From Christensenellaceae bacterium (lineage in GTDB: Bacteria > Bacillota > Clostridia > Christensenellales > Aristaeellaceae): a stretch of 33,816 bases of DNA. Both the position numbers and the translations under genes were made by a program. Of the stretch, positions 6,001 through 29,709 are shown in pieces (the first letter of the stretch is position 1; each line of letters begins with the position of its first letter). The stretch lies in contig JAAZPT010000162.1 of NCBI GenBank assembly GCA_012797085.1, forward strand, positions 1 to 33,816. Reading direction: 5' to 3'. Under the pieces are notes generated by a model. The model was not told the origin of the DNA. It made no database searches and saw only the letters and a list, made by a program, of their open reading frames with translations.

Positions 6001-9000
6001 AACACCCGTAGCATCATACATAGGTAGTCCTGTCCATGTATGCTCTGTATTGGTTGCAGTAAGTGTAGCTGTTTTGTACACAGCATCGTTTTGTAGCAGA
6101 ACAACTTCAGCGCCCTCTGTGGGGGGAGTTCCGCCATCCCAAACTTTTTGAACTTTAAAGTTACGGGTTTGCCAAGTGTTGGTTACGGTAGTACCAACTT
6201 CTTCTTTTTGATAGTTAACGGGCGTATAATCCGTACCGTCCACCCTGGTCTCTTTAACGCTGAAAGTGTAGGCGTTGCCTTGAGCATCCTCAGGTGCAAG
6301 GTTTCCCCAGCTTACGGTTTTTACCGTTTGCCCTGCTATATAGGGGATTAATTTAATTTGTGCACCGGGCACAGGCTCTGCAGCGGCCATGGCATCGGTT
6401 TTGCGGAATAGTTGGAAACAAACTTCCGGGAAGGGTTCAGGCCCATTGCCTGCCCAAACTTTTGTTGCTGTAACATTAGCTAAAAAGGTTGCAGTATAAG
6501 TTTGAGGTACAAACTGTGAAGGATCGCCTGTTGTGGCTGTGGTAGGTACAAAGTTAGGATCTGTACTTACAACATTACCACTTTCGTCTATCCAATTATT
6601 AAATACATAACCTGCATTGGCATTGGCAACAGAGCCGGCAGGTGTTCCCGTTTTTGCCAATACAGCCTCTTGGGTGTTGCTAACAGTACCAAAGGCATTG
6701 TTTTGGCTCTTGTATTTCAGTACGGGGTCGTAATAGAAGGTTATTGTGTTATCTTCAGGATTGGTTGTTAACATTGTTATTTGTTCATAAAGATTAACTC
6801 TGTTATAACCATTAATAATTCTTGAGTTATACTCGGTAACAATACGGTAAGAGGTTGGTGGACTGTCCTCATAGTAATGTGGAGGAGGTCCAAGTTCATC
6901 TATTGTTTCACGCTCTTTTAAATATACCCTGTAAACACCCTCCTGGGACGGTTTATACCAGAAAGTAACAACATTGTTTACATCCGCTACAGTGGAGGGT
7001 TTACTCAGTGCATCGGGCAAATAGCCGTAGAGCGTTTGAGCATCAAAAGTAGTAGTCTGCCCTTTAAGCACCACATAAGTTTGTGGGGAGACTATTTCAC
7101 TGCTGTCGCTTACCCTAAGGTGCCTTACTGTATATATAACTGTGCCGGAAGCGGCCCACTTTGCATAAACATTAGCATCTCTAGTAACGGGTGAACCAAA
7201 GACATAGCGTTGTTCCAAGCCATTCTCATCCGTAACATACCAGCCTAAGAAGGTACAATCGGCTTTTACGGGTTCTTCAGGTATGGCACTTGGCTTGCTG
7301 TATTCAACCGTTTGGCTACCCAAGTATGCGCCACCGGCATCGAGGGTCTCTTTGTCTATATACCAATTAATGTTGTAAGTTTGGGGCACCCAACCTGCAT
7401 ACAGTTGCACGTTGTTTGGCGGCATGCTAACTAAGTTGCCGTCAAAGTCATATAAATAAAATTGTGTTTCGCCATAGGTATCTATATACCAACCGGTAAA
7501 TGTATAGCCTGTACGCACAGGAGGTGCCGGCGGTATATTACCGGGTTGAATTTGAGTACCATATGGAACACTTTGGGGGCCAAAGCTGGTTGTTCCGTCC
7601 GGGAACTCCCCTCCGTTTGTGTTAAAGCCCAATTGGTATTCATTACGAGTGTAAACGAAAATATAGTTATAATAATTACCTGAACCTACAGGATATTCTT
7701 TTGTAGTAGTTGTGCTGGAATAGTTCATCGGGTCGCCGGAAGAATGGGTCAAACCATCAAACTCTTTGGCAACTAAAGATGAACCTGATAACTGTGAGGT
7801 AGTAAAAGTTGAGTGAGTGGTATATGTACCATTTGACTCCCTTATAAGATATATAGCATGACGAGTGTATAGTGTGGACGTAGTCCATTGGGCTTGTATT
7901 GTTGCGGTATTTCCGGCAGCGCTATCAATCATGCTTGTTGTAAGCATAAACTGCCTCGTAGCATAGCCGGTACCATTTGTATCTCTCCAGATATTAAAAT
8001 TCGCAAACGAATCAAAATTATAACTGGTTCTGTATCGTCCGGCCAGGTAGGTTGTGGATCCCTCCTGATACTTATACCCTGTAGAAACGTTTGTGCCGTC
8101 TGTAAGTTGTGGGTAGTCCAACCATAAAGAATCAATTTTTTGCCCTAAACGTACATTGGGCACCTCTTTATAGGTATAAGTACCATCCGGAGAATAAGTC
8201 CATGAACTTCCGGTCCAACGATATCTGTCGGTAATGAACCTTAAGTTATATAGTTTACGATTGTAACGCACATTAACAACGGTGCTTCCGTCACCGCTTA
8301 CTGTTTGTGTCTCTATTATTGGGTCTTGGAAATAGGCTCTAACATTCCAAAACTCTGTTTGGAAGTTAGCTGCCCTGTTTTGTAAATTTCCCCAGTAATA
8401 CGGGCTGCTTGTAGTAGCGGACAAAGCCTCGGCAGGAGCCGTACTTTCCGTTGGAACCGGACCTTTATCGAAAAATCCAAGGTAGGAATATCCATCATCA
8501 ACGGCATTTTGTGACCAATAAACAATTTTATAGTTAGCTGTTCCGGGGTTCCATATAGCTTTTACGGTTATATTGTTACCGGGCATTGTAGCAGGCGGAA
8601 CATCGCTGGAGTTATACACACCATCGTTGTTCCAATCCCAGCCTTGGAATACATAGCCGGGACGTGCCGGAACAGGCGTTGTGTTTATAGGTGCTTCAAA
8701 GCGTTCTGTAATAGGCGATACCGCAAAACCACCATTGCTGTTAAAGAATATGCTGTAGCTGTTACGGGTATAATAAAGATCTACTACAGCCTGACCATCA
8801 GCCGGAATTACCAAATCGGAATACGGTTGCAATGTAAACTCCGGGTAATCCTTAGGCAAGGCTCTGGTTAAAGAGCCTACAGAGCCACTTTGTGTATCTG
8901 TAGCAACAAGCACAAAGTTTGTGGGATTAAAATCAGCGCCACCTGTTACTGTTTGCTTCCAGTGACGTACTAAGTAGTTTTTATCGCTAAAATAATATGT

Positions 9001-9348
9001 AACTGTTCTTGTAACATCGGAGCCGTTTACCGTTCCTGTAATCACCTGATCACTAGGTAACGGAGCATGGCCGGTAACCGTAGGCGAGGGTATGCTATAC
9101 GATGTACCGTCCACATACTTTCCAAGGAACGAAGGGCTTGCCATTGTTCCATCCTCATATTGATAATGTATGTTTACATCATAAAAGGAAGGAGGGGGAT
9201 CCTCATTCAAACCTTTGGAATTTACTTGATTTTCAAGAGTGATAGGCGGGGAATAAAGGGTTTCCGCCAGCACCTGTAAAGGCAATAGCTGTATGATCAT
9301 CATAACCGCTAGGAACATTGCCATTATTCTTTTTCTTTTAATGAACAT
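1..9348 (-). CDS. Giant multidomain surface adhesin / pilus-like protein (3' end outside window)
   Basis: Predicted secreted, wall-associated adhesin. The frame is open from ATG at 9348 (AGGAGG 9 nt upstream) to base 1, 3116 codons, with no stop in the window. Visible domains in order: signal peptide (about residues 1-29, basic MFIKRKR then hydrophobic, ending VLAE); a MucBP-like segment (about 57-117); InlB/Flg_new-type beta repeats (about 195-250, 567-640, 655-740; motifs such as FNTNGG and GYTFTGWY); then about 14 Cna_B-like repeats of roughly 110-120 residues (about 957-2520; each begins like GTKxWVxG and ends with a TNTY-type strand); two FctA/Spy0128-like domains (about 2523-2755; GRTL..GEF.FEL and DIG.TYTY); and three full plus one partial DUF11/DUF7507-like repeats (period 336 bp). 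Cna_B and FctA families are known to form Lys-Asn/Asp isopeptide bonds, giving rigid stalks. The sorting signal, if any, lies beyond the window. It follows the repeat protein at 9394-11388 by 45 bp, so both are probably cotranscribed. Confidence 0.93.
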   Translation of the reverse strand, partial: MFIKRKRIMAMFLAVMMIIQLLPLQVLAETLYSPPITLENQVNSKGLNEDPPPSFYDVNIHYQYEDGTMASPSFLGKYVDGTSYSIPSPTVTGHAPLPSDQVITGTVNGSDVTRTVTYYFSDKNYLVRHWKQTVTGGADFNPTNFVLVATDTQSGSVGSLTRALPKDYPEFTLQPYSDLVIPADGQAVVDLYYTRNSYSIFFNSNGGFAVSPITERFEAPINTTPVPARPGYVFQGWDWNNDGVYNSSDVPPATMPGNNITVKAIWNPGTANYKIVYWSQNAVDDGYSYLGFFDKGPVPTESTAPAEALSATTSSPYYWGNLQNRAANFQTEFWNVRAYFQDPIIETQTVSGDGSTVVNVRYNRKLYNLRFITDRYRWTGSSWTYSPDGTYTYKEVPNVRLGQKIDSLWLDYPQLTDGTNVSTGYKYQEGSTTYLAGRYRTSYNFDSFANFNIWRDTNGTGYATRQFMLTTSMIDSAAGNTATIQAQWTTSTLYTRHAIYLIRESNGTYTTHSTFTTSQLSGSSLVAKEFDGLTHSSGDPMNYSSTTTTKEYPVGSGNYYNYIFVYTRNEYQLGFNTNGGEFPDGTTSFGPQSVPYGTQIQPGNIPPAPPVRTGYTFTGWYIDTYGETQFYLYDFDGNLVSMPPNNVQLYAGWVPQTYNINWYIDKETLDAGGAYLGSQTVEYSKPSAIPEEPVKADCTFLGWYVTDENGLEQRYVFGSPVTRDANVYAKWAASGTVIYTVRHLRVSDSSEIVSPQTYVVLKGQTTTFDAQTLYGYLPDALSKPSTVADVNNVVTFWYKPSQEGVYRVYLKERETIDELGPPPHYYEDSPPTSYRIVTEYNSRIINGYNRVNLYEQITMLTTNPEDNTITFYYDPVLKYKSQNNAFGTVSNTQEAVLAKTGTPAGSVANANAGYVFNNWIDESGNVVSTDPNFVPTTATTGDPSQFVPQTYTATFLANVTATKVWAGNGPEPFPEVCFQLFRKTDAMAAAEPVPGAQIKLIPYIAGQTVKTVSWGNLAPEDAQGNAYTFSVKETRVDGTDYTPVNYQKEEVGTTVTNTWQTRNFKVQKVWDGGTPPTEGAEVVLLQNDAVYKTATLTATNTEHTWTGLPMYDATGVAYTYRVEEPNVPDGYQRTISGPTANYDAIITNKYYGVPLKAVKFVSNPEIIPADLGVVSFTLELNQDGIEYDSFELSSPVTVPLSPMVKEYTDLPQYKQDIDIATGNVTLHEHQYTITEKNIPTNFLRESVIYNQAEGQWEVTNQFNRGSFYAEKIWDILPDPGTTVTFGLYRTINHSYQSPPPGNPEFEYMGTAYDIQLDGVTEDQAWVAVWQNLDGDDPQGNIYIFYAVEKDGPADYDIVSSASTKVVNQAQTIDFFAAKKWVDGANDRPANITLTLSRSANGVADSWSSELTLDGTADALPGATGETAPSADGNTWNAQWMDLPRFNNEKVEYQYSVSEPAITNYISSGPVLENGVHTITNTYNQPLGNIIGTKKWVDGESLRGQVVIRLFDGTTWTNGILDGSQNVDETSGTGSGELAPSADGNTWRYIWKDKPLKDINGNTITYTVEEYTDLSPTFTSTENGLTVTNTYNMTYADVTGTKTWVDGQAVRHDNLTMQLWRKVVVGGTTVTDEYVSGTDFAIPTESSEQTATVSKTWLAQPVTDSQGRTYTYYIKEGVGTGAAFAEGLPAGSNFTVSGEGTLALTNTYQQPLTAEDVVGKKTWVNGQVARHNNLTMQLWRKVVVAGATVTDEFVEGSSEPTIGIGSETDAQFTFQNNWGKLPATDTLGRDYTYYIKEGVGTGTAFAEGLPAGSNFTASGVGTLELTNTYTIPRANQTGTKVWIGPDGVTPLPTDSKYRTDLYLRIYRSFVNIDGITIKQMGHGAGADDILVTGASDGTATWNNLPLTRIDGRPYTFWVVEVASAGASDETWMPLNFIKTEEGMTVTNTMIPPTSNIKVTKAYLNGAGDAPAAGDVDNPAATDKLKFKFSAVDPYGMLHEFYLAPGESMDFNNVVQGWYQITEIETHGYTPSYSPAQEYFLTKDETLLVTITNTNTDQTTTGFTVHKNWVNGPLSDHDVVINLYRGIAGQQTLQKVTDAPVVTPVTPVNPGESKFTYTWDNLPLYNSYGIPYIYSAKEEGLIENNGSYELHKGDNVYVSTSSGSLTDPANPLTFTNTYVPNTDGTATAIKQWVNGSSAEHVPVTMKLWRSLDNGATMEEVTGTTPVIDPAAGPSNTFTYTWSNLQRKDNNGVEYTFYFTEEDATIPVEYALTYSASVSDGTKDYAPSGATAYNTYTSPTIEVTAKKIWENGDILDHTPVVLSLYRKIDGGTLQLVSKDYTVGPATLIGGKIEYDYTWTGVDKTDINGNVYTYYFKEDVVSGYTRIYASPYENDYGLAGTAVTNKYIQPTITVSGTKVWVYGNNSNRPDVYMKLYRSTDANAVEADWEAVPNAALYHLDNTAVYTENPERVFTTTFNWNDIHERDEKAKLYYFFVKEVNANGVDFTPSRYEKTETNTLVRNVYQATGIFTPQVTKKLAGRTLKDGEFNFELYNGTGTIETKSNDASGNVSFTDIEYTSADIGKTYTYFVREVVPAVVETGMTYDDQTVVEVNVTITDNFLNDGNLIVTPVYSIDTEFNNSYVASGELASGAWATKSLTGRTLRANEFSFELKDSGGIVLQQKSNDVNGNITFDAIQYTQADIGNTYTYTINEIIPAVGESGMAYDSRTITFTVKVEDGGNGALIVTPSFPANVEFKNVFTPNPVMTASKESNKNTYATVGETITYTVTLNNEGNVPLENVSVTDTLVDLSTVTPTESMNQDGILEIGETWTYEYTHEVTQDDIDASLITNTFKATHVDIPAGVTAQKTVNAVQGPAMEVSKEANKTTYLTAGELITYTVKLNNTGNVTLENVSVTDSLVTLTNAMRTESKNPDGKLEVGETWTYEYTYAVKQADIDSGSITNVFEATHADITDEVKAQNTINATQTPAMEANKEANKTTYATVGDVLTYTVKLKNTGNLTLEGVTVEDTLVDLSTITPTESMTSDGKLEVGETWTYEYTYEVTQADIDAGSITNEFTANHIRIPGGATAEKTVDATQTPAMEATKEANNPTYSTVGETI
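60..1080 (-). repeat. 336-bp DUF11/DUF7507-like coding repeats
   Basis: The string CATATGTCCAGG occurs at 189, 525 and 861, an exact 336-bp (112-codon) period. Each unit encodes a beta domain with a TYATVGETITYTV-like start and a GETWTYEYTYEVTQADID-like core. A fourth unit begins at the window edge, so the array continues outside. Confidence 0.85.
3840..4560 (-). repeat. Tandem near-duplicate Cna_B units in the giant gene
   Basis: Two adjacent blocks of about 357-363 bp are much more alike than the other Cna_B units. For example the stretch from about 4119 to 4160 recurs from about 4476, and 3921-3960 recurs at about 4284. This suggests recent duplication within the adhesin. Confidence 0.75.
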
Positions 9349-9393: not shown

Positions 9394-11388
9394 TTAGTCA
9401 GTAATGGTAACGCCAACGCGCCAATATCCCCTAAAGTTTCCGGCAGTAAGTATAATATCTAAACGTGAACCGGTGGCACCGGTTACATCAATCCAATTTT
9501 GGTTGTCTCCGGAAAACTGCCATTGAAATTGCGGGTTTTCCCCACAGTTAACAGTTTCCGCTGTAAAGCTGATAGAATCGCCAAATTCCAGTTCTTGGTC
9601 AGCCTTAACATTCATATATACACGTACAACGGGAACTTCTTCATCGGAATAGGTGTGGGTGATTGTAACGGGAGCGGACTGTATTAGGGTTAAAGCCCCA
9701 TTCTCATCCTCAGTCACACTTACATTTATGGAATATATGGTTTGATCATACATATAGCCGTTCTGGGGAGCATCTACTACCGCTTGAACATTATATGTAT
9801 ATTCGCCAATTTGTTCTTTAGTAAATACAATATCAGGGAAGTTGAAGCTGTTGCCAACATTATGCACCTGAACGCTTGGTGCACCTTCGCCAATAAGTTG
9901 AGCAGCAAACTGACCATCCTCAACGGTTACGCCATCAACAGCAAGGCCAACAGTTAGAGAGAGGGTTACAGATTCGGGTTCGGCAACTTCTTCTGATTCG
10001 AGGTCTTCCTCGCCATCGGGGTCTTCTGATTCAGGGTCTTCTTCACCGTCGGTTTCTTCTTCTGATTCAGGATCTTCTTCACCGTCGGCTTCTTCTTCTG
10101 ACTCAGGATCTTCTTCGCCGTCGGCTTCTTCTTCTGACTCGGGGTCTTCTTCGCCGTCAGTTTCTTCTTCTGATTCAGGATCTTCTTCACCGTCGGTTTC
10201 TTCTTCACCGTCGGTTTCTTCTTCACCGTCGGTTTCTTCTTCACCGTCGGTTTCTTCTTCTGATTCGGGATCTTCTTCGCCGTCAGTCAACTCCTCAGAT
10301 TCCGGAGTTGCTTCGGGATCAGCTGTTTCTTCTATATCCGGAGTTGCTTCAGGATCAACTGTTTCTTCAGGATTCGAAGTGGCTTCGGGATCAACTGTTT
10401 CCTCGGGAGCCGGCGTTGCTTCGGTATTTTCCTGTGCAATGCGAACAAAGCAAGCCTTAATATATGTAAGACCTGTAATTGGGTTATTAAAATCATATGG
10501 AACTGAAGAATTACCACGTAGTTCCTCGTCTACCTGGTACCAGTGTAAAAATTCTCTGCCGCTTGGAGCTTCAGGGGTTGAATTAGGCTCTTTAACAGGT
10601 TGACCTTTTTCAACAACGGTACTCATCCACTCTTCGCCTTTGGAATCATAAAATCTAACAAGGTATTTAGTAACCACTGTTTCGGATATAAGTACACCGG
10701 GTTCTTCATCAGGTTCTTTCGTTGCTGAAGGAACAGGAGACGGTTTTACATCTTCTGCTTCTGTGCCCTGTTCAGGAACCGGTGTTTCTGATGTTCCTGC
10801 ACCTTCAGAGTCTGCATTTTCCTCAGGAGCTACAGTGTTTTCAGCATCTGCAGTGCTTTCCGGTGCTGCTGTATCAGCCGGTGCCACTGTGTTTTCCGGC
10901 GCTGCTGTATCAGCCGGTGCCACTGTATTTTCCGGCGCTACCGTATTTGCAGGCGCTACCGTATTTGCAGGCGCTGCCGTATTTGCCGGTGCCGCTGTAT
11001 TTTCCGGCGCTGCTGTATTAGCAGGTGCCGCTGTATTTGCCGGTGCTGCTGTATTAGCAGGCGCTGCCGTATTTGCCGGTGCCGCTGTATTAGCAGGTGC
11101 TGCCGTATTTGCCGGTACCGCTGTATTAGCAGGTGCTGCCTGTTGAGTTGTAACAGCATGGGAAACCGGTGTTGTAGCAGCTTCAGATGATGGAAGCTCA
11201 GCTACAGCCGTCGGTTTTGGAGCCGACGTCACTTGAGGAATAGGTGTCTCTTCTGTATTTTTGAGTGTCACATCCGAATCAAAATCAGATGTTGCACCTC
11301 CTGTTGTTATCATCGAAAAAACAAGGGTAAACACAACAAGATTTACCATGATCAAATTAAATAGATTTCTTTTTCTACTCCTAAACAT
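9394..11388 (-). CDS. Secreted repeat protein with PANTAA and acidic repeats, InlB-type, FctA-like and Ig-like domains
   Basis: No named family covers the whole 664-residue protein. The start is ATG at 11388 with GGAGG 9 nt upstream; a TTG three codons earlier overlaps the ribosome binding site and is unlikely. Visible parts: basic N-terminus plus hydrophobic signal segment (about 1-35); a Pro/Ala/Thr linker of about sixteen six-residue units of the ANTAAP type (about 84-187); an InlB/Flg_new-like domain (about 237-317, LVRFYDSKGEEW to FLHWY); a very acidic tract of EEDPESEEETDG-type units (about 320-468); an FctA/Spy0128-like beta domain (about 473-577, IGEYTYNVQ); and an Ig-like C-terminal domain (about 580-664, FQWQFSGDNQNW). 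No LPXTG signal or C-terminal membrane anchor is present, so it may be released or held non-covalently. It is first in the operon with the giant adhesin and shares domain types with it. A role as accessory subunit or spacer is inference. Confidence 0.88.
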   Translation of the reverse strand: MFRSRKRNLFNLIMVNLVVFTLVFSMITTGGATSDFDSDVTLKNTEETPIPQVTSAPKPTAVAELPSSEAATTPVSHAVTTQQAAPANTAVPANTAAPANTAAPANTAAPANTAAPANTAAPANTAAPENTAAPANTAAPANTVAPANTVAPENTVAPADTAAPENTVAPADTAAPESTADAENTVAPEENADSEGAGTSETPVPEQGTEAEDVKPSPVPSATKEPDEEPGVLISETVVTKYLVRFYDSKGEEWMSTVVEKGQPVKEPNSTPEAPSGREFLHWYQVDEELRGNSSVPYDFNNPITGLTYIKACFVRIAQENTEATPAPEETVDPEATSNPEETVDPEATPDIEETADPEATPESEELTDGEEDPESEEETDGEEETDGEEETDGEEETDGEEDPESEEETDGEEDPESEEEADGEEDPESEEEADGEEDPESEEETDGEEDPESEDPDGEEDLESEEVAEPESVTLSLTVGLAVDGVTVEDGQFAAQLIGEGAPSVQVHNVGNSFNFPDIVFTKEQIGEYTYNVQAVVDAPQNGYMYDQTIYSINVSVTEDENGALTLIQSAPVTITHTYSDEEVPVVRVYMNVKADQELEFGDSISFTAETVNCGENPQFQWQFSGDNQNWIDVTGATGSRLDIILTAGNFRGYWRVGVTITD
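9985..10290 (-). repeat. Acidic coding repeats (EEDPESEEETDG type)
   Basis: In-frame repeats encode runs of Glu, Asp, Ser and Thr. The DNA unit is about 36 bp, with shorter 18-bp EETDGE units in the middle. Because the units are multiples of three, slippage would change length without breaking the frame. Open frames in other readings of this stretch are by-products of the repeat. Confidence 0.85.
10830..11140 (-). repeat. PANTAA coding repeats (18-bp units)
   Basis: About sixteen tandem six-codon units encoding ANTAAP, with variants ENTAAP, ANTVAP and ADTAAP. Units near the 5' side of the gene are the most uniform and those on the 3' side more diverged, as expected for an array growing by slippage. 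The composition resembles wall-spanning or glycosylatable Pro/Thr linkers. Confidence 0.85.
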
Positions 11389-11455
11389 TAGTAGCAACCT
11401 CCAAATACTTTTAAACTAAATTTTTGCGAAATTCGTCGATATTAGTCAATAGTAT

Positions 11456-12389: not shown

Positions 12390-13340
12390 TCATCCTTGAT
12401 TTTTAGCTTTTTGTGCGCTGCTTATAGTTTCTTCCATTAACAATTTAAGCTGAAAATCAGCATCTTTCAAGCGTTCAAGTTCTGTGAGTATGTTTTCTCC
12501 CTCTTCGGCAGCAAGGCCTTTACCATCTTTTAGAGCCTGTTCGGTTTTGCCCATTACTTCCACTGTACGTTGGGCGGCTTCACGATAGGCACCTAAAGCT
12601 TCCTGCTGTTGCTTAATGTTCAGGGCCAGGGCTAACTGGCTTTTCCATAAGGGAAGAGCAACTTCCGTTATCTGTTTGAGCTTTTCAACCACCAGCTTTT
12701 GGTTATGCTGAGTTAAGCGAATTTGCACGGCTAACTGTAGGCTTACGGTTTTTGATTGCCTCAATTGATTAAGACGCTCTGAAAACAAAAAGGACTCTTG
12801 TTTATCTTGTATTGATTTTTCCTGTTGTGCAATGGCTAAAGCTTGCTCTCCTATTATAATTTTGCGTTCCAAAGCACGGTAATATTTCAGGTTGCTATCA
12901 TATAGAGTATCTAAAAGCCCAATTTCCTTCAGCAGTGCTAACCTTGCCATGCCTATTTGATTGGACAAACGATCCACCATAAAGGTAATTTCGGTATAAT
13001 CCCGCCGTAAATTGTTATACTTTCTTTTATTTGAGGAAAAAAGCTTAGCAAAAAAGCCCTTGGACGAGCCGAGGGAAACAATATCAAGGCTTGCAATCTG
13101 TTCCTGTAAATCGTTTATTGCAGCCACTGCATCCTCAAGGGCCGTACCGGAGGCTCTTTTAAGCAACATATCGGATACATCGCTCAATTCGCGCTGTTCT
13201 TGAGCGCCAAAAGCTGAAATAGTAAGAGAATCCTTTATGTTAATATTCTTTGCTTGCAAAACAAGCTCTTGTTTTTCTTCAGAAGAAAATTGAGTTTCAA
13301 AATCCCTAGCAATTTGAGCAGGATCAAAGGCTTGCTCCAT
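12390..13340 (-). CDS. telA: TelA family protein (toxic anion resistance, YaaN-like)
   Basis: 316 residues, mostly helical with heptad-like Leu patterns. It has the central TelA signature (about residues 105-170: YNNLRRDYTEITFMVDRLSNQI followed by a long helix with LLDTLYDSNLKYYRALE). TelA/KlaA proteins are linked to tellurite and other envelope or toxic-anion stress, but their biochemical activity is not settled. ATG at 13340 lies 3 nt after the stop of the SBP-like gene, whose last codons supply a GGAG ribosome binding site. It is the last gene of the operon SBP-VWA, xpaC-like, SBP-like, telA. Pairing with an XpaC-like protein recalls the adjacent xpaC and yaaN genes of Bacillus subtilis. 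No signal peptide or membrane segment is seen, so it is probably cytoplasmic. Confidence 0.88.
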   Translation of the reverse strand: MEQAFDPAQIARDFETQFSSEEKQELVLQAKNINIKDSLTISAFGAQEQRELSDVSDMLLKRASGTALEDAVAAINDLQEQIASLDIVSLGSSKGFFAKLFSSNKRKYNNLRRDYTEITFMVDRLSNQIGMARLALLKEIGLLDTLYDSNLKYYRALERKIIIGEQALAIAQQEKSIQDKQESFLFSERLNQLRQSKTVSLQLAVQIRLTQHNQKLVVEKLKQITEVALPLWKSQLALALNIKQQQEALGAYREAAQRTVEVMGKTEQALKDGKGLAAEEGENILTELERLKDADFQLKLLMEETISSAQKAKNQG

Positions 13341-13343
13341 TTT

Positions 13344-14405
13344 TTAATGCTCCAGGGACTTTATAAGTTTATCCATTACCTGAGAATCCGGCATTTGAAT
13401 AATCTGTGCTACAAGGGGTGCAACACCCGGCACGGCTATATTTGATACGTCCATATTGGCAGCACTTATGCCCGTGCGAAAACCATGCTTTTTCCATGCC
13501 AAATCCTGTATTTCCGGTGAAAGTAGCGCCTCCAAACCGATCTTTCCCTTTTCGTTAAGGGCAATATATACATGGCTGGACCATACTGTAGGCACAGGAT
13601 ATAACAGCACAACATCATCCTTTATTTGCTTATAGTCTTCAGGGTTGGTATGAGCAAATTCCAATATTTGGCTTTCATAACCTGCCACCAAGGGCCTTGC
13701 CCCAACGCCGGTTTTTAAAAACTGACTGAATATATCTGCAGAGCTCGTTTCCATATACCCCAAGCGTTCAATTAAAGCTTTAAGCCTTGGAATAACTTCG
13801 TTAACGCGATCCAATGTAACCACATTGCCGTCATTTATCATGTTGGCCAAAAGGCCTGCAAACATGTTACCTGAATTTGATTTTGTAGGGTTGGTGGTTG
13901 ATACAAGTACAGGCCCATATAAAGGTAGACCCAGACTCTCCCAACGCTCGCCTTGTTCCAGCACAGGCAGGAAGGCTTTCATATCCAGATAATGTACTCC
14001 ATCCTTCTTAGTTACATAACCGGCCTTAATTAAGGCATCCGAAACCATTTGCCTTGTATACAGCACAATAGGAGTGTTGAATACAATTTCGCTTTGTGGT
14101 GGTTTTCCATAGGTTTTTTCATATAATTCAAGCGCTGTTTGGCTGGAGGGCCAAAGGTAGTCCCTGCCCCCGTGGTCCAAACGAATCATATCCAACGATC
14201 CGGCTTTTTGATAATTCAAGGTCAATTTTTTCTTGTTCATCAAAATCTTTTTCACTTCCGGGTCATCTACCAAGCCAATCTTTTCACCACCGATATAACC
14301 TGTTATATCTACCTGTTCTCCCTGCCTGCCTTGAAACCAGGAATAAGCCCCGGCTACAAGTATTACAAGCACTAACAGCAACAATCCCCAATGTTTTGTT
14401 TTCAC
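13344..14405 (-). CDS. Membrane-anchored substrate-binding-like protein
   Basis: 353 residues with an N-terminal hydrophobic anchor (about 7-25) and no lipobox Cys. The rest resembles a type II periplasmic binding protein related to the N-terminal part of the SBP-VWA protein upstream. Both share a WP box (YLWPSS here, AVWPAN there), an internal TPIV/TPVV segment, a T-x-SNSG motif, and a C-terminal RTG motif (HGFRTGI / YGRRTGY). GTG at 14405 overlaps the xpaC-like stop (GTGA) and uses the GGAGGAAGG at the end of that gene, so translation is probably coupled. No permease or ATPase is nearby, so import is unlikely. A ligand-sensing role is inference. Confidence 0.8.
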   Translation of the reverse strand: MKTKHWGLLLLVLVILVAGAYSWFQGRQGEQVDITGYIGGEKIGLVDDPEVKKILMNKKKLTLNYQKAGSLDMIRLDHGGRDYLWPSSQTALELYEKTYGKPPQSEIVFNTPIVLYTRQMVSDALIKAGYVTKKDGVHYLDMKAFLPVLEQGERWESLGLPLYGPVLVSTTNPTKSNSGNMFAGLLANMINDGNVVTLDRVNEVIPRLKALIERLGYMETSSADIFSQFLKTGVGARPLVAGYESQILEFAHTNPEDYKQIKDDVVLLYPVPTVWSSHVYIALNEKGKIGLEALLSPEIQDLAWKKHGFRTGISAANMDVSNIAVPGVAPLVAQIIQMPDSQVMDKLIKSLEH

Positions 14406-15010
14406 AGTCCTTCCTCCAGATGTAGTGTTTTCTCCAACAAGTTAATATCTGCCTCCACATCCATTACTTCATTCTGCATAAGCTTGTTAAACTGTTTCAT
14501 AAAGGCATCATGAAGTATATCCAAGGCCCGAGCCGTCTCAGGAGTTAAGCTCTGCACCTGTGGACTATCCGGATTGGAAGCGATAAGGTTCATATATTTA
14601 TTAAGAATGTTTGCGCCGGTATCCAGGTAAAAGCTGAAAAAACGCCTTGCGGAAGAAATCTTCTTGGGGTTGTTATCCAAATAAGTAAGCAAGCGATTTC
14701 CAAGCTCATGCAATTTTTTTGCCTTCTCGCTAATATCAGCATCCAAGCTGAGTTGGGATGCCTTGTATATTACCTGCATATCATCATGGGCATCGGACAT
14801 TATTTGCAGCAATTCCTGCCCTCCCTTAATATTATCTACAGGAGTGTTTCCTATGCGCTTAACAGGCTTAGTAAACAAAAATACCGCCCCATATATCAAA
14901 ACGGCAATTAGCCCGCTCACTATAATATGCCAATCGGCTTTAAAATATAGCAATGCAAAAACTATAATTCCTGCCAGAAAAGATATAAAGCTACGAAAGT
15001 TTTCTTTCAT
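14402..15010 (-). CDS. xpaC: XpaC-like membrane protein
   Basis: 202 residues. Two closely spaced N-terminal membrane helices (about 8-25 and 29-46) are followed by a long alpha-helical cytoplasmic part. This fits the XpaC family (annotated as 5-bromo-4-chloroindolyl phosphate hydrolysis protein, a name from an old phenotype rather than a proven enzyme). Family members commonly occur next to TelA, as here. ATG at 15010 has AGGAG 8 nt upstream and starts 16 nt after the SBP-VWA stop. It may connect the extracytoplasmic binding proteins to TelA; this is a proposal, not shown by sequence. Confidence 0.78.
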   Translation of the reverse strand: MKENFRSFISFLAGIIVFALLYFKADWHIIVSGLIAVLIYGAVFLFTKPVKRIGNTPVDNIKGGQELLQIMSDAHDDMQVIYKASQLSLDADISEKAKKLHELGNRLLTYLDNNPKKISSARRFFSFYLDTGANILNKYMNLIASNPDSPQVQSLTPETARALDILHDAFMKQFNKLMQNEVMDVEADINLLEKTLHLEEGL

Positions 15011-15026
15011 TTATACGCTCCTATTA

Positions 15027-16646
15027 TCAGTTATAGCCTTTAACTTTTTTAAAGGCGTCTATAAGATTCTTATCACCGTCAAAAACCCGCGCATGGGTCC
15101 ATTCCGCTAATTTGTTCAGAGTTTTTACATCCGCATCACCGAAGGAAATACAGAAGACGGGTACATCCTGCCCATGCTTATTATAGCTTCTTAAGAAGTC
15201 ATCTATGCTCATGCTGCCGTTGGCCTGGCCGTCTGTCATAACTATTATGGCCGGGGTATAGTTTTGAAGGTCATAACCCGCAACTATATCAAGGGCTTTA
15301 TCAAGGGCTTCAAACATGGAAGTTCCGCCACCCGGCTTTTCCTTGGATACTACAGTGTAAAGTTTTTCGATATCACTATTGCCTGTTTCTTTGCTTATGC
15401 TTATTATGTCACTACTAAAAAGAATTACAATGTTTTCTTCCTGTTGGGAAGCCTGCAGCAAGTTTTTAGCCGCCCTGTCCTGTAAAAGTATTTCTCCCAT
15501 GGCATCCTTTAGTTTTTCACTCGGATCACCATACATTGAGCCGGAAAAGTCCAAAACATACACCGTTAAAGAAGGCTTACGAAACTCGGTTTGATATAAG
15601 TTGAGAGCTTCCCAAAGCACATCGCTGTCGGGCATACGTATGGGTGATAGAATATTTTGAGTGTCGGCGCCCCATTCCTTTCGCCATACATTAAGGTTTT
15701 CTGGAAGTATACCCGCATAGCCCGTACGGCGACCATATTTTTGAATATCTGCCTGTATTTCGCTTGACATAAGAAAATCACGCAATTTTAAGAAAGCCTC
15801 TTCTTTTTTCTTATCACCCTGGTCTACATAGCCAAGGGGTGCATCGGATATGGAAAGTCCGTCATAGGGATATACCAAGTGCAAGGGTTCCCTCCCCTGT
15901 TTTAAAAGCTCCTCATTGGTGCTGAGAATAAGGCTTTCATAGTTGACCATGGCATCAAAGTCCCCTTCTAAAAACAGGGTTTTAAGCCACTCGCTGCTGC
16001 CGGAGGAACGGTCCACACCCTTGAGCAATGCCTGTATATCCGCCCTGAGCCCTTCCTGCTTAAGGCTTTCCGAAGTAATAATTTCAGGATTATCCAACAG
16101 AGCATATAAAAAGCCGATATAAGCCGAACAACCGGAGTTTGACTGTGTAGCACTGGTCATACAGAAGGACAGCTTTCCGTTTTGAATTTGATTAAGAATA
16201 TCCCGCACGGATACCTGTGTACCAACAAAGCCCAATTCCTTAGCCAAGGACTCCTTGATACCGAATACAACAGGAGTTATTGAAACGGACTCCATATACT
16301 TTACCCTATGCTTTGTATCCCCAATGGAAATCCACATGCTGTTAGCCGGCCATACCGCATCATAGGGTATATTATCTTGGCCCAATATTCTGGAAATTTC
16401 CACAGAGCCCTGATACTTCATATCAAGGGCAATTTTGTTTTCCTTGGAAAAGCGTTGCAACAAGGGTTCCAACTCTTTATTTTCAGAGCCGGATACAATG
16501 CGTAACGTTACCGGATAATTGCTTTCCCCTATAGTAGGGTTGCCGGTAGTTTCCTTTTTATCATCTGTACAGGAACTTAGGCACAAGGCTAAAGCTAAAA
16601 GTATAATAAAGATTTTTGAAATTTTTTTAATTGAATTAATTTTCAT
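15027..16646 (-). CDS. Lipoprotein: substrate-binding domain fused to a VWA domain
   Basis: 539 residues. The signal peptide ends in a lipobox (LCLSSC, Cys26), so it should be lipid-anchored outside the membrane. Residues about 48-345 are a type II solute-binding domain (YDAVWPANSMW, SATQSNSGCSAYIGF, YGRRTGYAG). Residues about 358-535 are a von Willebrand factor A domain with an intact MIDAS: DFSGS near 364, a Thr in GGGTS near 438, and Asp in MTDGQ near 471. VWA domains bind partners through a divalent metal. First gene of the four-gene TelA operon; ATG at 16646 with GGAGGGG 6 nt upstream. Proteins with this fusion are known in Clostridia but lack an assigned function. It could be a ligand sensor that assembles a complex with XpaC and TelA. 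Confidence 0.88.
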   Translation of the reverse strand: MKINSIKKISKIFIILLALALCLSSCTDDKKETTGNPTIGESNYPVTLRIVSGSENKELEPLLQRFSKENKIALDMKYQGSVEISRILGQDNIPYDAVWPANSMWISIGDTKHRVKYMESVSITPVVFGIKESLAKELGFVGTQVSVRDILNQIQNGKLSFCMTSATQSNSGCSAYIGFLYALLDNPEIITSESLKQEGLRADIQALLKGVDRSSGSSEWLKTLFLEGDFDAMVNYESLILSTNEELLKQGREPLHLVYPYDGLSISDAPLGYVDQGDKKKEEAFLKLRDFLMSSEIQADIQKYGRRTGYAGILPENLNVWRKEWGADTQNILSPIRMPDSDVLWEALNLYQTEFRKPSLTVYVLDFSGSMYGDPSEKLKDAMGEILLQDRAAKNLLQASQQEENIVILFSSDIISISKETGNSDIEKLYTVVSKEKPGGGTSMFEALDKALDIVAGYDLQNYTPAIIVMTDGQANGSMSIDDFLRSYNKHGQDVPVFCISFGDADVKTLNKLAEWTHARVFDGDKNLIDAFKKVKGYN

Positions 16647-16689
16647 GTTTTCCCCTCCAGGCGCTTTATACGCCCATATTGTCTTTTTT

Positions 16690-16695
16690 ATTATA
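16690..16695 (-). promoter_or_regulatory. Candidate -10 element for the SBP-VWA/telA operon
   Basis: TATAAT on the minus strand about 44 bp before the SBP-VWA start, inside an AT-rich stretch. No convincing -35 is seen at the right distance, and a second TATAAT lies further upstream, so the position is uncertain. Confidence 0.35.
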
Positions 16696-16758
16696 ACATA
16701 AATCTATATTGCATTATAATAATAAGCTATAAAATTAAAATAAAATACATTAAAAACA

Positions 16759-16779
16759 GATTATAATTTTCTAATAATC
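16759..16779 (-). terminator. Weak terminator after the DUF6326-like gene
   Basis: GATTAT/ATAATC 6-bp stem that overlaps the stop codon, followed on the minus strand by TGTTTTTAATG. Short AT-rich stem; tentative. Confidence 0.35.
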
Positions 16780-19320: not shown

Positions 19321-19388
19321 TTTTTCTCCTTCCAAGTTTATGTTATATTTTGAATTTTATAAGCTTCTATATTTTATATTCAAACTAC

Positions 19389-19417
19389 TTGACAAAGATT
19401 ATTATTCAAATTATACT
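19389..19417 (+). promoter_or_regulatory. Promoter of the MarR/flavoprotein operon
   Basis: TTGACA at 19389-19394, a 17-nt spacer and TATACT at 19412-19417. Transcription should begin near 19424, just before the palindrome at 19432-19449. Confidence 0.85.
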
Positions 19418-19431
19418 GTTGATAACGCAAT

Positions 19432-19449
19432 TAGGTAATATGTTACCTA
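19432..19449 (+). promoter_or_regulatory. Palindromic operator, probably bound by the operon's MarR protein
   Basis: TAGGTAA, TATG, TTACCTA: a perfect 7-bp inverted repeat just downstream of the predicted transcription start and 4 bp before the AGGAGG of the FMN-binding gene. Dyads of this size near the start are typical MarR sites, and the marR gene is second in this operon, so autorepression is likely. It may also affect the divergent hydrolase gene. Confidence 0.75.
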
Positions 19450-19466
19450 TTAAGGAGGGAATTTTT

Positions 19467-19859
19467 ATGAAAATCAAAAAGTTGCTTATAGGGTTTATTG
19501 CTTTGATTTTAGTTGTTGGCGGCATTGTTTTCTTTATAATGAGCAAACAGGTAAATCAACTTGCAAACCAGGATTTTGGCATGATTGATGTTGCCGACCT
19601 GCCTGACGGAATATATCAAGGCAGTGTATCTGCGCTATTGGTTAGTGCAAATGTAGAAGTTGCTGTATACGACGGACATATTAAAGAGGTAAAACTTATA
19701 GAGCATAACCATGGCAAAGATCATGGTGCCGAAGCACTCTGTGAAAAAATAGTTAGCGCAAACAGCCCGAATGTGGATATCATAAGTGGCGCAACAGCCT
19801 CAAGCATAGTTGTTAAAAGTGCTGTGTTGGATGCTTTGAAAAGGGGTATTACGCCATGA
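19467..19859 (+). CDS. Membrane-anchored FMN-binding domain protein
   Basis: 130 residues. ATG at 19467 with AGGAGG 7 nt upstream; a longer frame to 19350 lacks a ribosome binding site and crosses the promoter. N-terminal membrane segment (about 6-24) and then an FMN_bind domain. The segment DIISGATAS near the C-terminus matches the Dxx(S/T)GAT motif where ApbE-type transferases attach FMN through a phosphoester to Thr. The protein probably carries flavin on the outer face and passes electrons. No apbE gene is in the window. Its last codons overlap the marR start (ATGA). It heads an operon with a MarR regulator and two flavodoxin-fold proteins. Confidence 0.87.
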   Translation: MKIKKLLIGFIALILVVGGIVFFIMSKQVNQLANQDFGMIDVADLPDGIYQGSVSALLVSANVEVAVYDGHIKEVKLIEHNHGKDHGAEALCEKIVSANSPNVDIISGATASSIVVKSAVLDALKRGITP

Positions 19860-20368
19860 ACCGGGAAAAACAACAAGCAGATAATGTTAATATGCCAGTT
19901 GACCTAAGTAATATAGATGATAGATATTATCTATTCGGTATGCTTACCGTATTTGCCAACCGCATGCAAACCGTGGGCGACACCGTATTTGAAGAAATAA
20001 CATGGAAACAATGGTTTGCCTTGCTTGGTTCCAGTGTTTTACAACCCTTGCCCTCCGTTTCCCAGGTGGCAAATTTTTTAGGGACTTCACACCAAAATAT
20101 GAAACAGTTGCTTTTACGCTTGCAATCAAGGGGTTTTATAAAACTGGAAAAGGATAAGGCCGACCTGCGCAGAACCCTTATTAAGCTAACCCCGGAATAT
20201 GAAGCCTTTGATAAAAAATACAGGGAGAGCAGCAGCATTTTTATGGATAGTTTGTTTGAAGGAATATCAAGCGAGTCTTTAGCTACAGCCCGTCAAGTAT
20301 TGTATCAGCTTGATAATAACTTAAAAGCCATAGCACAGGATATCAATAAACAGGAGGATAACATATGA
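19856..20368 (+). CDS. MarR family transcriptional regulator
   Basis: 170 residues with a central winged helix-turn-helix (about 62-115). SVSQVANFLGTSHQNMKQLLLRL is the helix-turn-helix, and FIKLEKDKADLRRTLIKLT is the wing with the D-x-R motif. N- and C-terminal helices would form the dimer. No obvious sensor Cys is seen, so it may respond to a bound ligand. Start overlaps the FMN-binding gene by 4 bp and its stop overlaps the next gene, so it is translated with the enzymes it probably controls. The palindrome at 19432-19449 is the likely target. Confidence 0.87.
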   Translation: MNREKQQADNVNMPVDLSNIDDRYYLFGMLTVFANRMQTVGDTVFEEITWKQWFALLGSSVLQPLPSVSQVANFLGTSHQNMKQLLLRLQSRGFIKLEKDKADLRRTLIKLTPEYEAFDKKYRESSSIFMDSLFEGISSESLATARQVLYQLDNNLKAIAQDINKQEDNI

Positions 20369-20901
20369 TAGTAATAATTTCAGATGACAGCAAAGATAAT
20401 TGGGGTGCGGCTTTTGAAGAAACATTACTACAAACGGAAAGTGAAGTTTTTCGTTTTTCCTCCAATAAGCTTGACATTAAACCTTGTGCAGCATGTGGCA
20501 GCTGTAGCGGAAAAACTTATGGCCGTTGCATTATTCCGGATGATATGCAGCAGGTATTAGTTAAAATTGCAGGTTGCTGTTCGCTCATTCTTATTTCCCC
20601 GATAGTGTTTGGCGGCGTCAGTCATCATATTAAAAAGATAATGGATCGTATGGCCTCCATAGGCGACCCTCGATACCGAATAAACAAGGGAGAAATAGTA
20701 AAAGGTATGAGCGGCCAAGGAATGAACTATTACATGGTAGGCACAGGAAACAATATTAGCGAGGCGGAGAAGTCAGCTTTTTTATACCTTCATGAAGAAA
20801 ACATAAACATAATGAGTGCCAAAGGGCGAGCTTTTGTACTTGATAAGGGATTTAACAGGGAATTGATTAATAAAACAGCACAGGAGATTTTACATGAATA
20901 A
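20365..20901 (+). CDS. Iron-sulfur flavoprotein-like reductase
   Basis: 178 residues, flavodoxin fold of the NADPH-dependent FMN reductase / iron-sulfur flavoprotein group. A compact cluster C41-x2-C44-x2-C47-x7-C55 should bind a [4Fe-4S] centre next to FMN. SPIVFGGVSHHIKKIMDR is the conserved FMN-side loop and helix. Such proteins transfer electrons to quinones, oxygen species or other acceptors. ATG overlaps the marR stop by 4 bp and the 3' end overlaps the next gene by 8 bp. The same Cys spacing occurs in the products at 22774-23514 and 32920-33408. Confidence 0.83.
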   Translation: MIVIISDDSKDNWGAAFEETLLQTESEVFRFSSNKLDIKPCAACGSCSGKTYGRCIIPDDMQQVLVKIAGCCSLILISPIVFGGVSHHIKKIMDRMASIGDPRYRINKGEIVKGMSGQGMNYYMVGTGNNISEAEKSAFLYLHEENINIMSAKGRAFVLDKGFNRELINKTAQEILHE

Positions 20902-21538
20902 GTCAAATATAATGCTCCTTTGCGCAAGCCCTAGAAGCAAAGGAACCAGTGCCATGTTGCTGGAACGCATACGTGTTGTAACAGGTGGGGAAATTGTTTT
21001 TCTGCCCCAAAAGGGCAGCTTGGATAAGTTGATACCGGCCATGCAACAGGCCTCAACCATAGTAATATCCGGGCCTTGTTACATAAATACATATCCGGCC
21101 AGGCTGGTGGAATTGTTGGAAACGGCATCGTCAGCAGGCGGTTTTACAGGGCAAAAGCTATATGGCATAATAAACGGCGGTATGCCTTATGTTCACACCC
21201 ATAGGCACGGTATTACATTGCTGCAATTATTTGCAGAGCGGAATAATATTGCGTGGCAAGGCGGCTTTGTATTGGGCGTTGGCGCCATGTTGGACGGCAA
21301 TCCCCTTGAAAAGCATATGGATCGCAAAACAATAGTTCCGGCTTTTGATATGTTTATACAGCACATCGCAGAGGGCAGCCCATCACCTGATAGCCTATAT
21401 GAACAGGCTCAAAAGCCTCCAAGTAAAATAATGACTTACGTTTTTTCAAAACTTCTGACTTTTTTAGTAGTAAAACGTATCAAAAAGCATGGTCATGACC
21501 CGGATGCTCCCAATTGGTATATAAGAGAGCAGAAGTAA
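20894..21538 (+). CDS. Flavodoxin-fold NAD(P)H oxidoreductase
   Basis: 214 residues. A flavodoxin-like start (MLLCASPRSKGTSAMLLERI, phosphate-binding Ser/Thr) and GPCYINTYPARLVELLE match FMN reductase-type proteins, but the Cys cluster of its partner is missing. An amphipathic or membrane-touching C-terminal segment (about 175-195, MTYVFSKLLTFLVVKRIKK) may bring it to the membrane. Overlaps the preceding gene by 8 bp. An iron-sulfur flavoprotein followed by a Cys-poor flavodoxin with a membrane tail is repeated at 33408-32192, suggesting a two-protein unit. Confidence 0.8.
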   Translation: MNKSNIMLLCASPRSKGTSAMLLERIRVVTGGEIVFLPQKGSLDKLIPAMQQASTIVISGPCYINTYPARLVELLETASSAGGFTGQKLYGIINGGMPYVHTHRHGITLLQLFAERNNIAWQGGFVLGVGAMLDGNPLEKHMDRKTIVPAFDMFIQHIAEGSPSPDSLYEQAQKPPSKIMTYVFSKLLTFLVVKRIKKHGHDPDAPNWYIREQK

Positions 21539-21584
21539 AGTTGCATTTGTTTTAACTAATAATCGCTTTGTTCAAATACCGAAC

Positions 21585-22721
21585 TTAATTTTCTACTTGA
21601 TTTTTTAAATTAAGTAGAACTTTAATATAGTCATTAGGTAAATCTGCATGAATATCATGGCTGGATTTAAACCCTCCAATGTATTTGCTGTTTGGTATCA
21701 AATCAACAACTTTTTGTGCATCTGTTTCATCCATTGCGGCAAGCAAAATTCCATTTTTATCATAATAGCTCGGTTTGGTTAAATCACTAGGAGCTACATG
21801 CATAACAATGGTGGGCGATTTGATGTTTTTCAATATTTCTTCCTGGTCAAATCCGTCAAACCATGAAAAATCATAAAACTTTACACCAAACCGCAAATCA
21901 TAATTGCTTGTTCCATCCTGCAAGTTGGCATTTAATGCATAAATGGAGTTTATCCCCAACTCCGGCGGATAGAACCATATTTTAGGAACTTCTCCGGGAT
22001 GTTTATCCAAAAATGTTAAGGCGGAATTTTTTACTATTTTATTCCATGCTTGAGGGTTTTCAGCATTAAATACTTCCTGCATATAATCATTCTCTAAGGA
22101 ATATTTCATAAAGCTGTCTATTTCATTTTGGTTTAAATAGTCATACATATTTTTAAACCCCAACCATGAAATAGTCTTTTGTGCTCGCCCGGGGAGTGTA
22201 GCAAAAAAGGGACCATCTTCTAATACCGTGGCTATTATGCTGTCAGGCGCATTAGCGGAAATATAAGAAGCAAGCAAAGCCCCTGAAGAATGGCCGGATA
22301 TATATACCTTGTCCTTAATAATATTATCTATAAACCAAATAATATCATTACCTATGTTAACCGCATTATACTTATCTGGGTTTTTGGATGATTTTCCGTG
22401 ACCATAATAATCAAGGGCAAAAACATGAAATTCCTTTGATAATTTTGGCAACACCTTTGCATAATCATAGCAGCTTGCTTGTTGACCATGAAGTAAAAGA
22501 AGTTTAGGTCCATTATCGGGGCCTTCTATATAATATATCTCCGACCCGTCATCCAATTGAGCCATACCTTCCTTAAAACCCAGCTTGTATCCGTTTTTTT
22601 CTAAAAAATGCTCATTTAAAATATCGTAATGCATATTTCTATATGCAAAAAAGATTATGCCTATTATAATAAGCAAAATAATGATTCCTAAAGCAATAAG
22701 AATTTTATAGATTAAGCGCAT
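21585..22721 (-). CDS. Membrane-anchored alpha/beta hydrolase
   Basis: 378 residues with an N-terminal membrane helix (about 5-27). Alpha/beta hydrolase core: LLLHGQ (oxyanion region), ALDYYGHGKS, nucleophile elbow GHSSGALLA with catalytic Ser, and a C-terminal SSHDIHADLP segment with the likely catalytic His. Lid-like insertion between about 185 and 290. Substrate unknown; general esterase or peptidase-type roles are possible. ATG at 22721 with GGAGGGG upstream. Converges with the flavodoxin gene ending at 21538, 46 bp away; probably read with the upstream flavoprotein gene (52-bp gap). Confidence 0.85.
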   Translation of the reverse strand: MRLIYKILIALGIIILLIIIGIIFFAYRNMHYDILNEHFLEKNGYKLGFKEGMAQLDDGSEIYYIEGPDNGPKLLLLHGQQASCYDYAKVLPKLSKEFHVFALDYYGHGKSSKNPDKYNAVNIGNDIIWFIDNIIKDKVYISGHSSGALLASYISANAPDSIIATVLEDGPFFATLPGRAQKTISWLGFKNMYDYLNQNEIDSFMKYSLENDYMQEVFNAENPQAWNKIVKNSALTFLDKHPGEVPKIWFYPPELGINSIYALNANLQDGTSNYDLRFGVKFYDFSWFDGFDQEEILKNIKSPTIVMHVAPSDLTKPSYYDKNGILLAAMDETDAQKVVDLIPNSKYIGGFKSSHDIHADLPNDYIKVLLNLKNQVEN

Positions 22722-22773
22722 ATTCCCCTCCGTTTATTTTGATAACAATATTTATATAATATAAGTTACATAC

Positions 22774-23514
22774 TCAGGCCTTATTTTTCCAAGGAAAATT
22801 ACCGTCCAGCCATCCTTCTTTTTGCCAATACAGATAATCGCTGGTTACAGGTTGGCCTTTCTTTTGCAGCATGTCATGTATGCCTTTTTCAGCGAAAGCC
22901 ATAGCACGATACAGCAACTTTGTAATAAACCCCGGTGCGGTATCCTGTTGTTTTGAGATGATTTTACGGATTGTTTCCTCCATTTGCCGATTCAATTTAT
23001 CCTTTACGTTTTGTTCTACCAAATTATAATCGGTCATGGCTAAGCGTGCCTTAATGCTATATATGCGTTTTACACCCCAAAAACGCAGGCTGTACTTTAA
23101 GGGAGTAAGTGTGCTGCGAAAGCCTGCTCCAACAGCTTGATTGATTATAAGGGCTTGTTTGCCTATCATTTTGGGGCTTGGCTTATGCACAATCCATCGG
23201 CTGCCGAAGTGATCCAACAAGGTTTTCAACTGCCCGGGAACGCTGAATACATAGGTGGGAGTTATAAACACTATCAGGTTGGCATCCTCCATGGCCTGCC
23301 ATATTGTTTGTGTAACACTCAAGTGTGGGCAGGCGCTCATATCATTAGTAAAGCAGGCTTTACAGCCTAAGCAATATGCCGGGCCATCCTTTGGAAGAAT
23401 AAACTGTTTTATATTTGCCTCGGGTATAAGGCTTTTAACTTTATCTAAAAATGTTTTATGAATATGTTCAGTGCATCCTTTATTGGAAACAGCTAATATT
23501 ATGCATATATTCAT
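22774..23514 (-). CDS. Iron-sulfur flavoprotein-like NADPH:FMN reductase
   Basis: 246 residues, flavodoxin fold. Cys cluster C48-x2-C51-x2-C54-x7-C62 matches the iron-sulfur flavoprotein pattern and has the same spacing as the other two in this window. FITPTYVFSVPGQLKTLLDHFG is the conserved FMN-binding loop and helix. The C-terminal 80 residues, with a hydrophobic amphipathic stretch, extend past the usual family length and resemble the tail of the 20894-21538 product. So this single gene may combine the roles of the two-gene units elsewhere. ATG at 23514 follows AGGAGG at 7 nt. Confidence 0.83.
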   Translation of the reverse strand: MNICIILAVSNKGCTEHIHKTFLDKVKSLIPEANIKQFILPKDGPAYCLGCKACFTNDMSACPHLSVTQTIWQAMEDANLIVFITPTYVFSVPGQLKTLLDHFGSRWIVHKPSPKMIGKQALIINQAVGAGFRSTLTPLKYSLRFWGVKRIYSIKARLAMTDYNLVEQNVKDKLNRQMEETIRKIISKQQDTAPGFITKLLYRAMAFAEKGIHDMLQKKGQPVTSDYLYWQKEGWLDGNFPWKNKA

Positions 23515-29253: not shown

Positions 29254-29649
29254 ATGGGCGGTAGAGGATCAAGTTCCGGAGTAAGTGTTAAGGGAATACC
29301 TTATGGTTCTGAGTATACATCTGTATTAAACATCATTAATATAAAATTTCTTAAAAAAAATGACGGCAGTTCAACGGCACCATTGGAAACTATGACAAAA
29401 GGGCGTGTTTATGTGACTATAAATGATGAAAACAGGTTAAAATCAATATCATACTATGACAATAACAATAAAAGAATGAAACAAATAGATTTAGACCATT
29501 ATCATAAAGTTAAAGATAAAAACGAAAAACCACATAAACATTTAGGTTATTATCATAACGAAAAAGGTGATAGTACATTATCTTATAAAGAAAGTAAAAT
29601 GGTTGACTTTGTTAATAGAGTATGGAATAATAGAACTAATAAGAAGTAG
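29254..29649 (+). CDS. MGGRGSSSG-type phage cargo protein (cassette 3)
   Basis: 131 residues with a normal ATG and an AAAGGA site about 9 nt upstream. The N-terminus MGGRGSSSG is the same type as the other two cassettes. The body has TMTKGRVYVTIN and a His-rich segment (IDLDHYHKV then PHKHLGYYHNE) that could bind metal or be catalytic. Similar proteins accompany phage head genes in Clostridia; activity is not established. No immunity-like gene follows; a separate terminator does. It lies immediately after the cassette 2 terminator. Confidence 0.75.
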   Translation: MGGRGSSSGVSVKGIPYGSEYTSVLNIINIKFLKKNDGSSTAPLETMTKGRVYVTINDENRLKSISYYDNNNKRMKQIDLDHYHKVKDKNEKPHKHLGYYHNEKGDSTLSYKESKMVDFVNRVWNNRTNKK

Positions 29650-29686
29650 TTTAGGAGGAAAACAAAAGATTTTGTAATCTTTAAAC

Positions 29687-29709
29687 TCCGGTGCGACTCC
29701 GGACTTTTT
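29687..29709 (+). terminator. Terminator after cassette 3
   Basis: TCCGG, 7-nt loop, CCGGA, then C and TTTTT. A second short perfect hairpin AAAGATT/AATCTTT lies just before it (29665-29682). Confidence 0.7.

Follow-up and report, generated by a model that had tools for sequence, protein, structure and literature searches.

For years, proteins of the XpaC and TelA families have been associated with envelope stress, nisin and tellurite, but without a mechanism. In Bacillus subtilis, the xpaC-yaaN pair is a member of the sigma-W core regulon (PMC3498285); in L. lactis, a study of the CesSR envelope-stress response found telA1 and an XpaC-like protein to be induced (PMC3139573); and in Listeria, garvicin KS induces lmo1966-1967, with a mutant of lmo1967 being 4-fold more sensitive to nisin (PMC12791056). 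Ter systems are described as building sub-membrane structures with TelA and a VWA protein (PMC7824862). The present analysis concerns a four-gene operon at positions 12,390 to 16,646 of a 33,816-nucleotide contig from a Christensenellaceae bacterium (JAAZPT010000162.1, assembly GCA_012797085.1; the whole stretch is called the window hereafter), in which xpaC and telA lie within one operon together with genes for two solute-binding proteins (SBPs), one of them, SBP2, sitting between the pair.

With a probability of roughly 0.55, this operon encodes a self-contained, transporter-free XpaC-TelA envelope-stress module equipped with two surface receptors. Because XpaC-TelA pairs elsewhere belong to envelope-stress regulons, it is most simply viewed as such a pair that has gained two receptors at the surface. 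All genes are on the minus strand in the order VWA-SBP, XpaC, SBP2 and TelA, with intergenic spacings of 16, -4 and 3 nt, the XpaC stop and the GTG start of SBP2 sharing the 4-nt overlap GTGA. The original prediction, made on this DNA before the present analysis, was correct to the base in its four genes, their coordinates and their spacings. The features are:

15027..16646, minus strand: VWA-SBP, a lipoprotein with a type II solute-binding domain (about residues 46-345) and a C-terminal VWA domain (about 358-535), assigned from Pfam, lipobox, structural model and metal ion-dependent adhesion site (MIDAS).
14402..15010, minus strand: XpaC family membrane protein with an N-terminal hydrophobic hairpin and a helical, probably cytoplasmic domain (Pfam Halogen_Hydrol/XpaC, 3.7e-22).
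13344..14405, minus strand: SBP2, a second solute-binding protein with a transmembrane (TM) anchor, assigned from homology to the SBP half of VWA-SBP and from an AlphaFold2 model.
12390..13340, minus strand: TelA, cytoplasmic, a short and divergent member of its family (Pfam TelA, 2.5e-43).
16647..16777, minus strand: intergenic region 5′ of the operon.

The operon is real and conserved as a unit. A single scan of a bacterial and archaeal genome collection with VWA-SBP yielded 32 loci, to which sampled Bacillota genomes added two further complete ones. Because one protein served as bait, the homologues recovered are skewed towards 47-82% identity with the query, and many of the records are metagenome-assembled genomes (MAGs). 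Adjacency was counted only at loci whose contig reaches far enough. XpaC directly follows VWA-SBP in 32/32 other loci, SBP2 is next in order in 28/28 and TelA adjoins SBP2 in 24/27. At 20 of 28 loci, XpaC and SBP2 overlap by exactly 4 nt. The hosts of this form include Christensenellaceae, Lachnospiraceae, other Clostridia, Sporolactobacillus, Treponema and other Spirochaetes, and since all four are found side by side again in several phyla, their grouping is far from chance. Among 399 sampled Bacillota genomes, VWA-SBP was found in four and the SBP2 profile in the same four, neither occurring alone in any; if the query genome is left out, the coincidence is 3/3 among 398 genomes (P about 1e-7). 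TelA is commoner, being above cut-off in 49 of the sampled genomes, and adjoins SBP2 in all three other module genomes of this sample. The co-occurrence of the two binding proteins, whose failure had been named beforehand as a refutation, is perfect in this sample. At one locus (L011:7221-11239) there is a tandem second pair of XpaC and VWA-SBP, the second VWA-SBP being split over two frames.

The module is self-contained, and its flanks are unrelated between loci. The 82 flanking proteins of the other loci matched 125 Pfam families, none of them in more than four proteins; transporter families were sporadic (ABC_tran in three, BPD_transp_2 in two) and none recurred, so that the consistent linkage to transporters that would have spoken for an uptake system was not seen. 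Nor is a permease or ATPase encoded within or adjoining the operon in the window, which agrees with the absence of both first noticed there.

The two binding proteins are related to each other. VWA-SBP matches the Pfam families SBP_bac_11 (4.1e-14) and VWA (5.4e-10) and carries a lipobox, LSSC with Cys26, of a kind recognised in most VWA-SBPs. The MIDAS residues D366, S368, S370, T442 and D472 (DxSxS...T...D) are identical in 34/34 homologues. SBP2 has no match among Pfam or NCBIfam models; its N-terminus is a predicted hydrophobic helix (residues 2-26), and its SBP region is homologous to that of VWA-SBP (profile-profile E 1.1e-15). Structure prediction was confident for both proteins, with a predicted local distance difference test (pLDDT) score of 90.8 for SBP2 (AlphaFold2) and 90 for VWA-SBP, and both regions adopt the two-lobed type II periplasmic-binding-protein (PBP-II) fold (Foldseek probability 1.00, E ~1e-10 to 1e-12 against solved SBPs). 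The closest PDB structures to the SBP2 model are sulfate-, molybdate- and ferric-binding proteins. Those closest to the VWA-SBP model are ferric-binding proteins, binders of glucose 6-phosphate (G6P) and 6lkg, titled a two-component signalling protein, which we take to be, probably, HptA.

Type II SBPs hold their ligands at junctions between strands and helices. The motifs S-G-S-E-N / G-G-E-K, W-P, S-N-S-G, Y-E and R-T stand at equivalent junctions of this kind in both models, their placement in a pocket being deduced from the secondary structure of the models. These motifs hardly vary: K42, S176, Y243, E244 and R310, for instance, are kept in 30/30 SBP2s, as are E55, G172 and E237 in 34/34 VWA-SBPs. 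The divergent binding domain common to both proteins, recognised by the original prediction from WP, T..SNSG and RTG motifs, is borne out by these comparisons, as are the lipid anchor and intact MIDAS of the first protein and the membrane anchor of the second. The statement that the parts belong to known families holds for VWA-SBP, XpaC and TelA and fails for SBP2.

XpaC and TelA are recognised without difficulty, the former by PF10112 (XpaC/Halogen_Hydrol; 79.7 bits, cut-off 29.8) and the latter, which is shorter and more divergent than typical members, by PF05816 (148.9 bits, cut-off 30). The association of the two families extends beyond the module, an XpaC-family open reading frame (ORF) lying upstream, and nearly always adjacent, in 25 of 27 Bacillota TelA loci that lack it.

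The strongest evidence for a unit is a second gene order, found on plasmids of Sphaerotilus (L044), Variovorax (L046, L050) and Nonomuraea (L047), where SBP2, TelA and VWA-SBP follow one another and are succeeded by a protein of ~210 aa that starts with a two-helix hydrophobic segment (2TM). Compared with the order VWA-SBP, XpaC, SBP2, TelA of the window, this shuffled form has two pairs swapped, and it occurs in Betaproteobacteria, an actinomycete and Deinococcus. The presence of the same families in another order in other phyla argues for function and not for passive linkage. The 2TM protein matches XpaC in position and general layout; profile-profile comparison gave a probability of 6-8%, and homology is not claimed. 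A weak relative of it occurs in a TelA-TerD cluster of Curtobacterium. On plasmid 2 of Variovorax sp. PBL-H6 (L050:7193-21527), a few genes separate the shuffled module from a complete Wadjet operon of the JetABCD type on its downstream side, and three sister plasmids carry the same module.

From these elements a mechanism can be proposed. The lipid-anchored VWA-SBP and the TM-anchored SBP2 would capture, outside the membrane, the same or a related anionic ligand, the candidates being oxyanions, metal-oxyanions and phosphorylated compounds. The MIDAS of the VWA domain would probably hold a protein partner, for which SBP2 and a surface component are candidates, in a manner that depends on metal and ligand. 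Closure of the SBPs could then be relayed through the anchor of SBP2 and the hairpin of XpaC to TelA, which would build a protective sub-membrane assembly as part of an envelope-stress response. The working unit of the original prediction is well supported by the co-occurrence of its genes and by the second gene order; its assembly into one envelope-spanning complex and its roles in sensing and in the response to stress are suggested by its architecture and by the published regulation of XpaC-TelA pairs. Tentatively, and with less confidence than in the module itself, one may go further and see here a class of signalling systems, shared by Clostridia, Spirochaetes, Betaproteobacteria and Actinomycetota, in which two paralogous SBP receptors, one of them MIDAS-gated, relay their ligand occupancy through a two-helix membrane protein directly to a sub-membrane TelA effector with neither kinase nor transporter. 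If the SBPs do sense a ligand, the missing input of a TelA system would be supplied and made testable, and there would be a clear case of SBPs kept by distant phyla as receptors without a transporter or a kinase.

Several observations weigh against the proposed stress module. The complex, the ligand and the phenotype are inferred indirectly. SBPs can serve unlinked permeases, and a TelA cluster on plasmid pAM7 of Vibrio rotiferianus (L095:1-7043) does include an ABC permease, next to genes for OmpA, VWA, an SBP-OmpA fusion, an unknown protein, TelA and an SBP. The SBP2 profile does not detect the SBPs of this cluster, which is seemingly an independent association of TelA, SBP and VWA, this time with a permease. 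Outside Bacillota and Spirochaetes, the counterpart of XpaC is not demonstrably homologous to it, and the shuffled arrangement of Deinococcus (L045) is without TelA. In favour of the unit, VWA-SBP, XpaC and SBP2 have evolutionary distances that correlate at r 0.97-0.98, which partly reflects common species history; the distance matrix of TelA agrees less well (r about 0.75). At three loci (L017, L018 and L024) no TelA stands beside SBP2, and a separate XpaC-TelA pair is present in the genomes concerned. The co-directional gene that follows SBP2 in L018 and L024 was considered as a divergent TelA and rejected, while the absence of TelA from L020 was an artefact of ORF picking, the gene being complete (L091). 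TelA is the least fixed partner of the module, and the difference in correlation, together with the separate pairs, suggests a three-protein receptor core able to use a TelA from another locus.

Other explanations have to be considered, and they rank, from most to least probable, as scaffold, uptake, defence and metal handling. VWA domains with a MIDAS mainly mediate protein contacts, and the operon might specify a constitutive complex for envelope protection, in which the SBP folds and the VWA domain serve as structural adhesion modules, joining lipid-anchored to membrane proteins over a sub-membrane TelA layer, without any gating by ligand. The invariance of the MIDAS would fit such a scaffold, as would the sub-membrane structures that TelA is described as forming (PMC7824862, citing Anantharaman 2012). 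A purely structural fold would, however, be expected to lose its ligand-loop motifs, whereas both SBP domains keep them across phyla, which makes a scaffold unlikely. Greater doubt attaches to uptake, in which the SBPs would act as receptors that hand a solute, be it an oxyanion, a metal or a sugar phosphate, to an ABC permease from another locus, with XpaC and TelA being no more than co-regulated. Although the closest solved folds are mostly SBPs of ABC transporters and the Vibrio cluster combines an SBP with a permease, the flanking proteins contain no linked permease family beyond sporadic matches; moreover, the VWA fusion, the constant coupling to XpaC and the maintenance of a transporter-free module across phyla speak against transport. 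What the operon encodes is probably machinery for sensing stress, so far uncharacterised, and not a pump for nutrients.

A mobile module directed against phages or plasmids and related to Ter systems would find an argument in the Wadjet operon just downstream of the Variovorax module, in the proposal (PMC7824862) that Ter systems and TelA are anti-phage or xenobiotic systems, and in their occurrence in phages. This is improbable given that no member has a PADLOC family, apart from a marginal match of XpaC to Csx27 (E 7e-4), that defence genes are not over-represented in the flanks elsewhere and that 50,697 phage records contain no SBP2. Lastly, both SBPs resemble ferric- and metal-citrate-binding proteins in structure, which might point to metal handling of the kind found in TerC-linked systems, the module sensing metal or loading it on secreted proteins. 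The window proteins scanned with Pfam nevertheless include no TerC, TerD or TerB, and the SBP loops presumably differ from the iron ligands of FbpA-type proteins, as far as can be judged at the level of sequence, so that this explanation appears highly improbable. The transporter-free stress module with two receptors is the reading retained here.

The surroundings of the operon offer little that is related to it. In the upstream intergenic region (16647..16777), no promoter stands out, sigma-70-like matches numbering 18 against 13.9 +/- 3.9 in shuffled sequences, and the upstream neighbours are an unrelated DUF6326 protein and a zinc-type dehydrogenase. On the 3′ side, an AT-rich gap of almost 1 kb separates TelA from genes for giant surface proteins. 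One of these (1-9348, minus strand) encodes a partial protein of 3116 aa with Cna_B, FctA isopeptide, List_Bact repeat and DUF7507 domains; 46 nt upstream of it lies an ORF of 667 aa (9394-11397, minus strand) that also matches FctA, so that there are either two adhesin genes or a single gene split by a frameshift. Several small flavodoxin or NADPH-dependent FMN reductase-like genes are grouped around a MarR-type regulator and hydrolases at 19350-23514 and 31331-33408. A tRNA-like gene (29639-29712, plus strand; Rfam score 48.9 bits), whose anticodon is read by ARAGORN as four bases (ttgt), has an anticodon loop apparently one base too long and a poor acceptor stem, and is a degraded or unusual tRNA.

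The assembly that contains the window is 80% complete, in 441 contigs. Full-length VWA-SBP was found in no same-family genome among the relatives searched, the best being VWA-only matches at 24-30%; in 11 same-family genomes the SPFH protein of the window has no homologue and its hydrolase has partial matches only (18-32%). Near relatives of the operon do occur in Christensenellaceae-type MAGs. The contig may have been placed in the wrong bin or acquired horizontally, neither of which affects the operon. Elsewhere in the collection, near-identical contig starts are filed under a Bacteroidales MAG (L012) and a Clostridiales MAG (L038), one of which must be wrongly assigned.

Among known systems, the closest are the XpaC-TelA (YaaN) pairs, namely xpaC-yaaN of B. 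subtilis, lmo1966-lmo1967 of Listeria and llmg_1115-telA1 of L. lactis, whose two families are also those of the window operon; the published systems are pairs, while the operon adds two extracytoplasmic SBPs, one of them fused to VWA, around and between the partners. The Ter/TelA stress systems (Anantharaman, Iyer and Aravind 2012, as summarised in PMC7824862) likewise have a membrane-linked module in which TelA occurs with a VWA protein, but TerC, TerD and TerB are lacking from the window proteins scanned, and the VWA domain of the operon lies outside the cell as part of an SBP fusion. In HptASR of Staphylococcus aureus (PMC8774646), the secreted SBP HptA, which resembles VWA-SBP by sequence profile and by fold, is a receptor that serves signalling and not a permease; it signals to a histidine kinase, whereas the operon has no kinase, XpaC and TelA occupying the membrane and cytoplasmic places. 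Actinomycetota annotated as having ‘Substrate-binding and VWA domain-containing proteins’ (L051, L052) possess the same fusion, with a full-length profile match, but unlike the window operon have no detectable SBP2, XpaC or TelA neighbour. The kla/tel operon of RK2 did not turn up in the TelA search of plasmids. In the literature searched, no description of the transporter-free unit of four parts came to light; an earlier mention in the key 2012 paper on Ter systems is possible. The unit is best regarded as a variant of the XpaC-TelA kind, and all its parts except SBP2 belong to named families.

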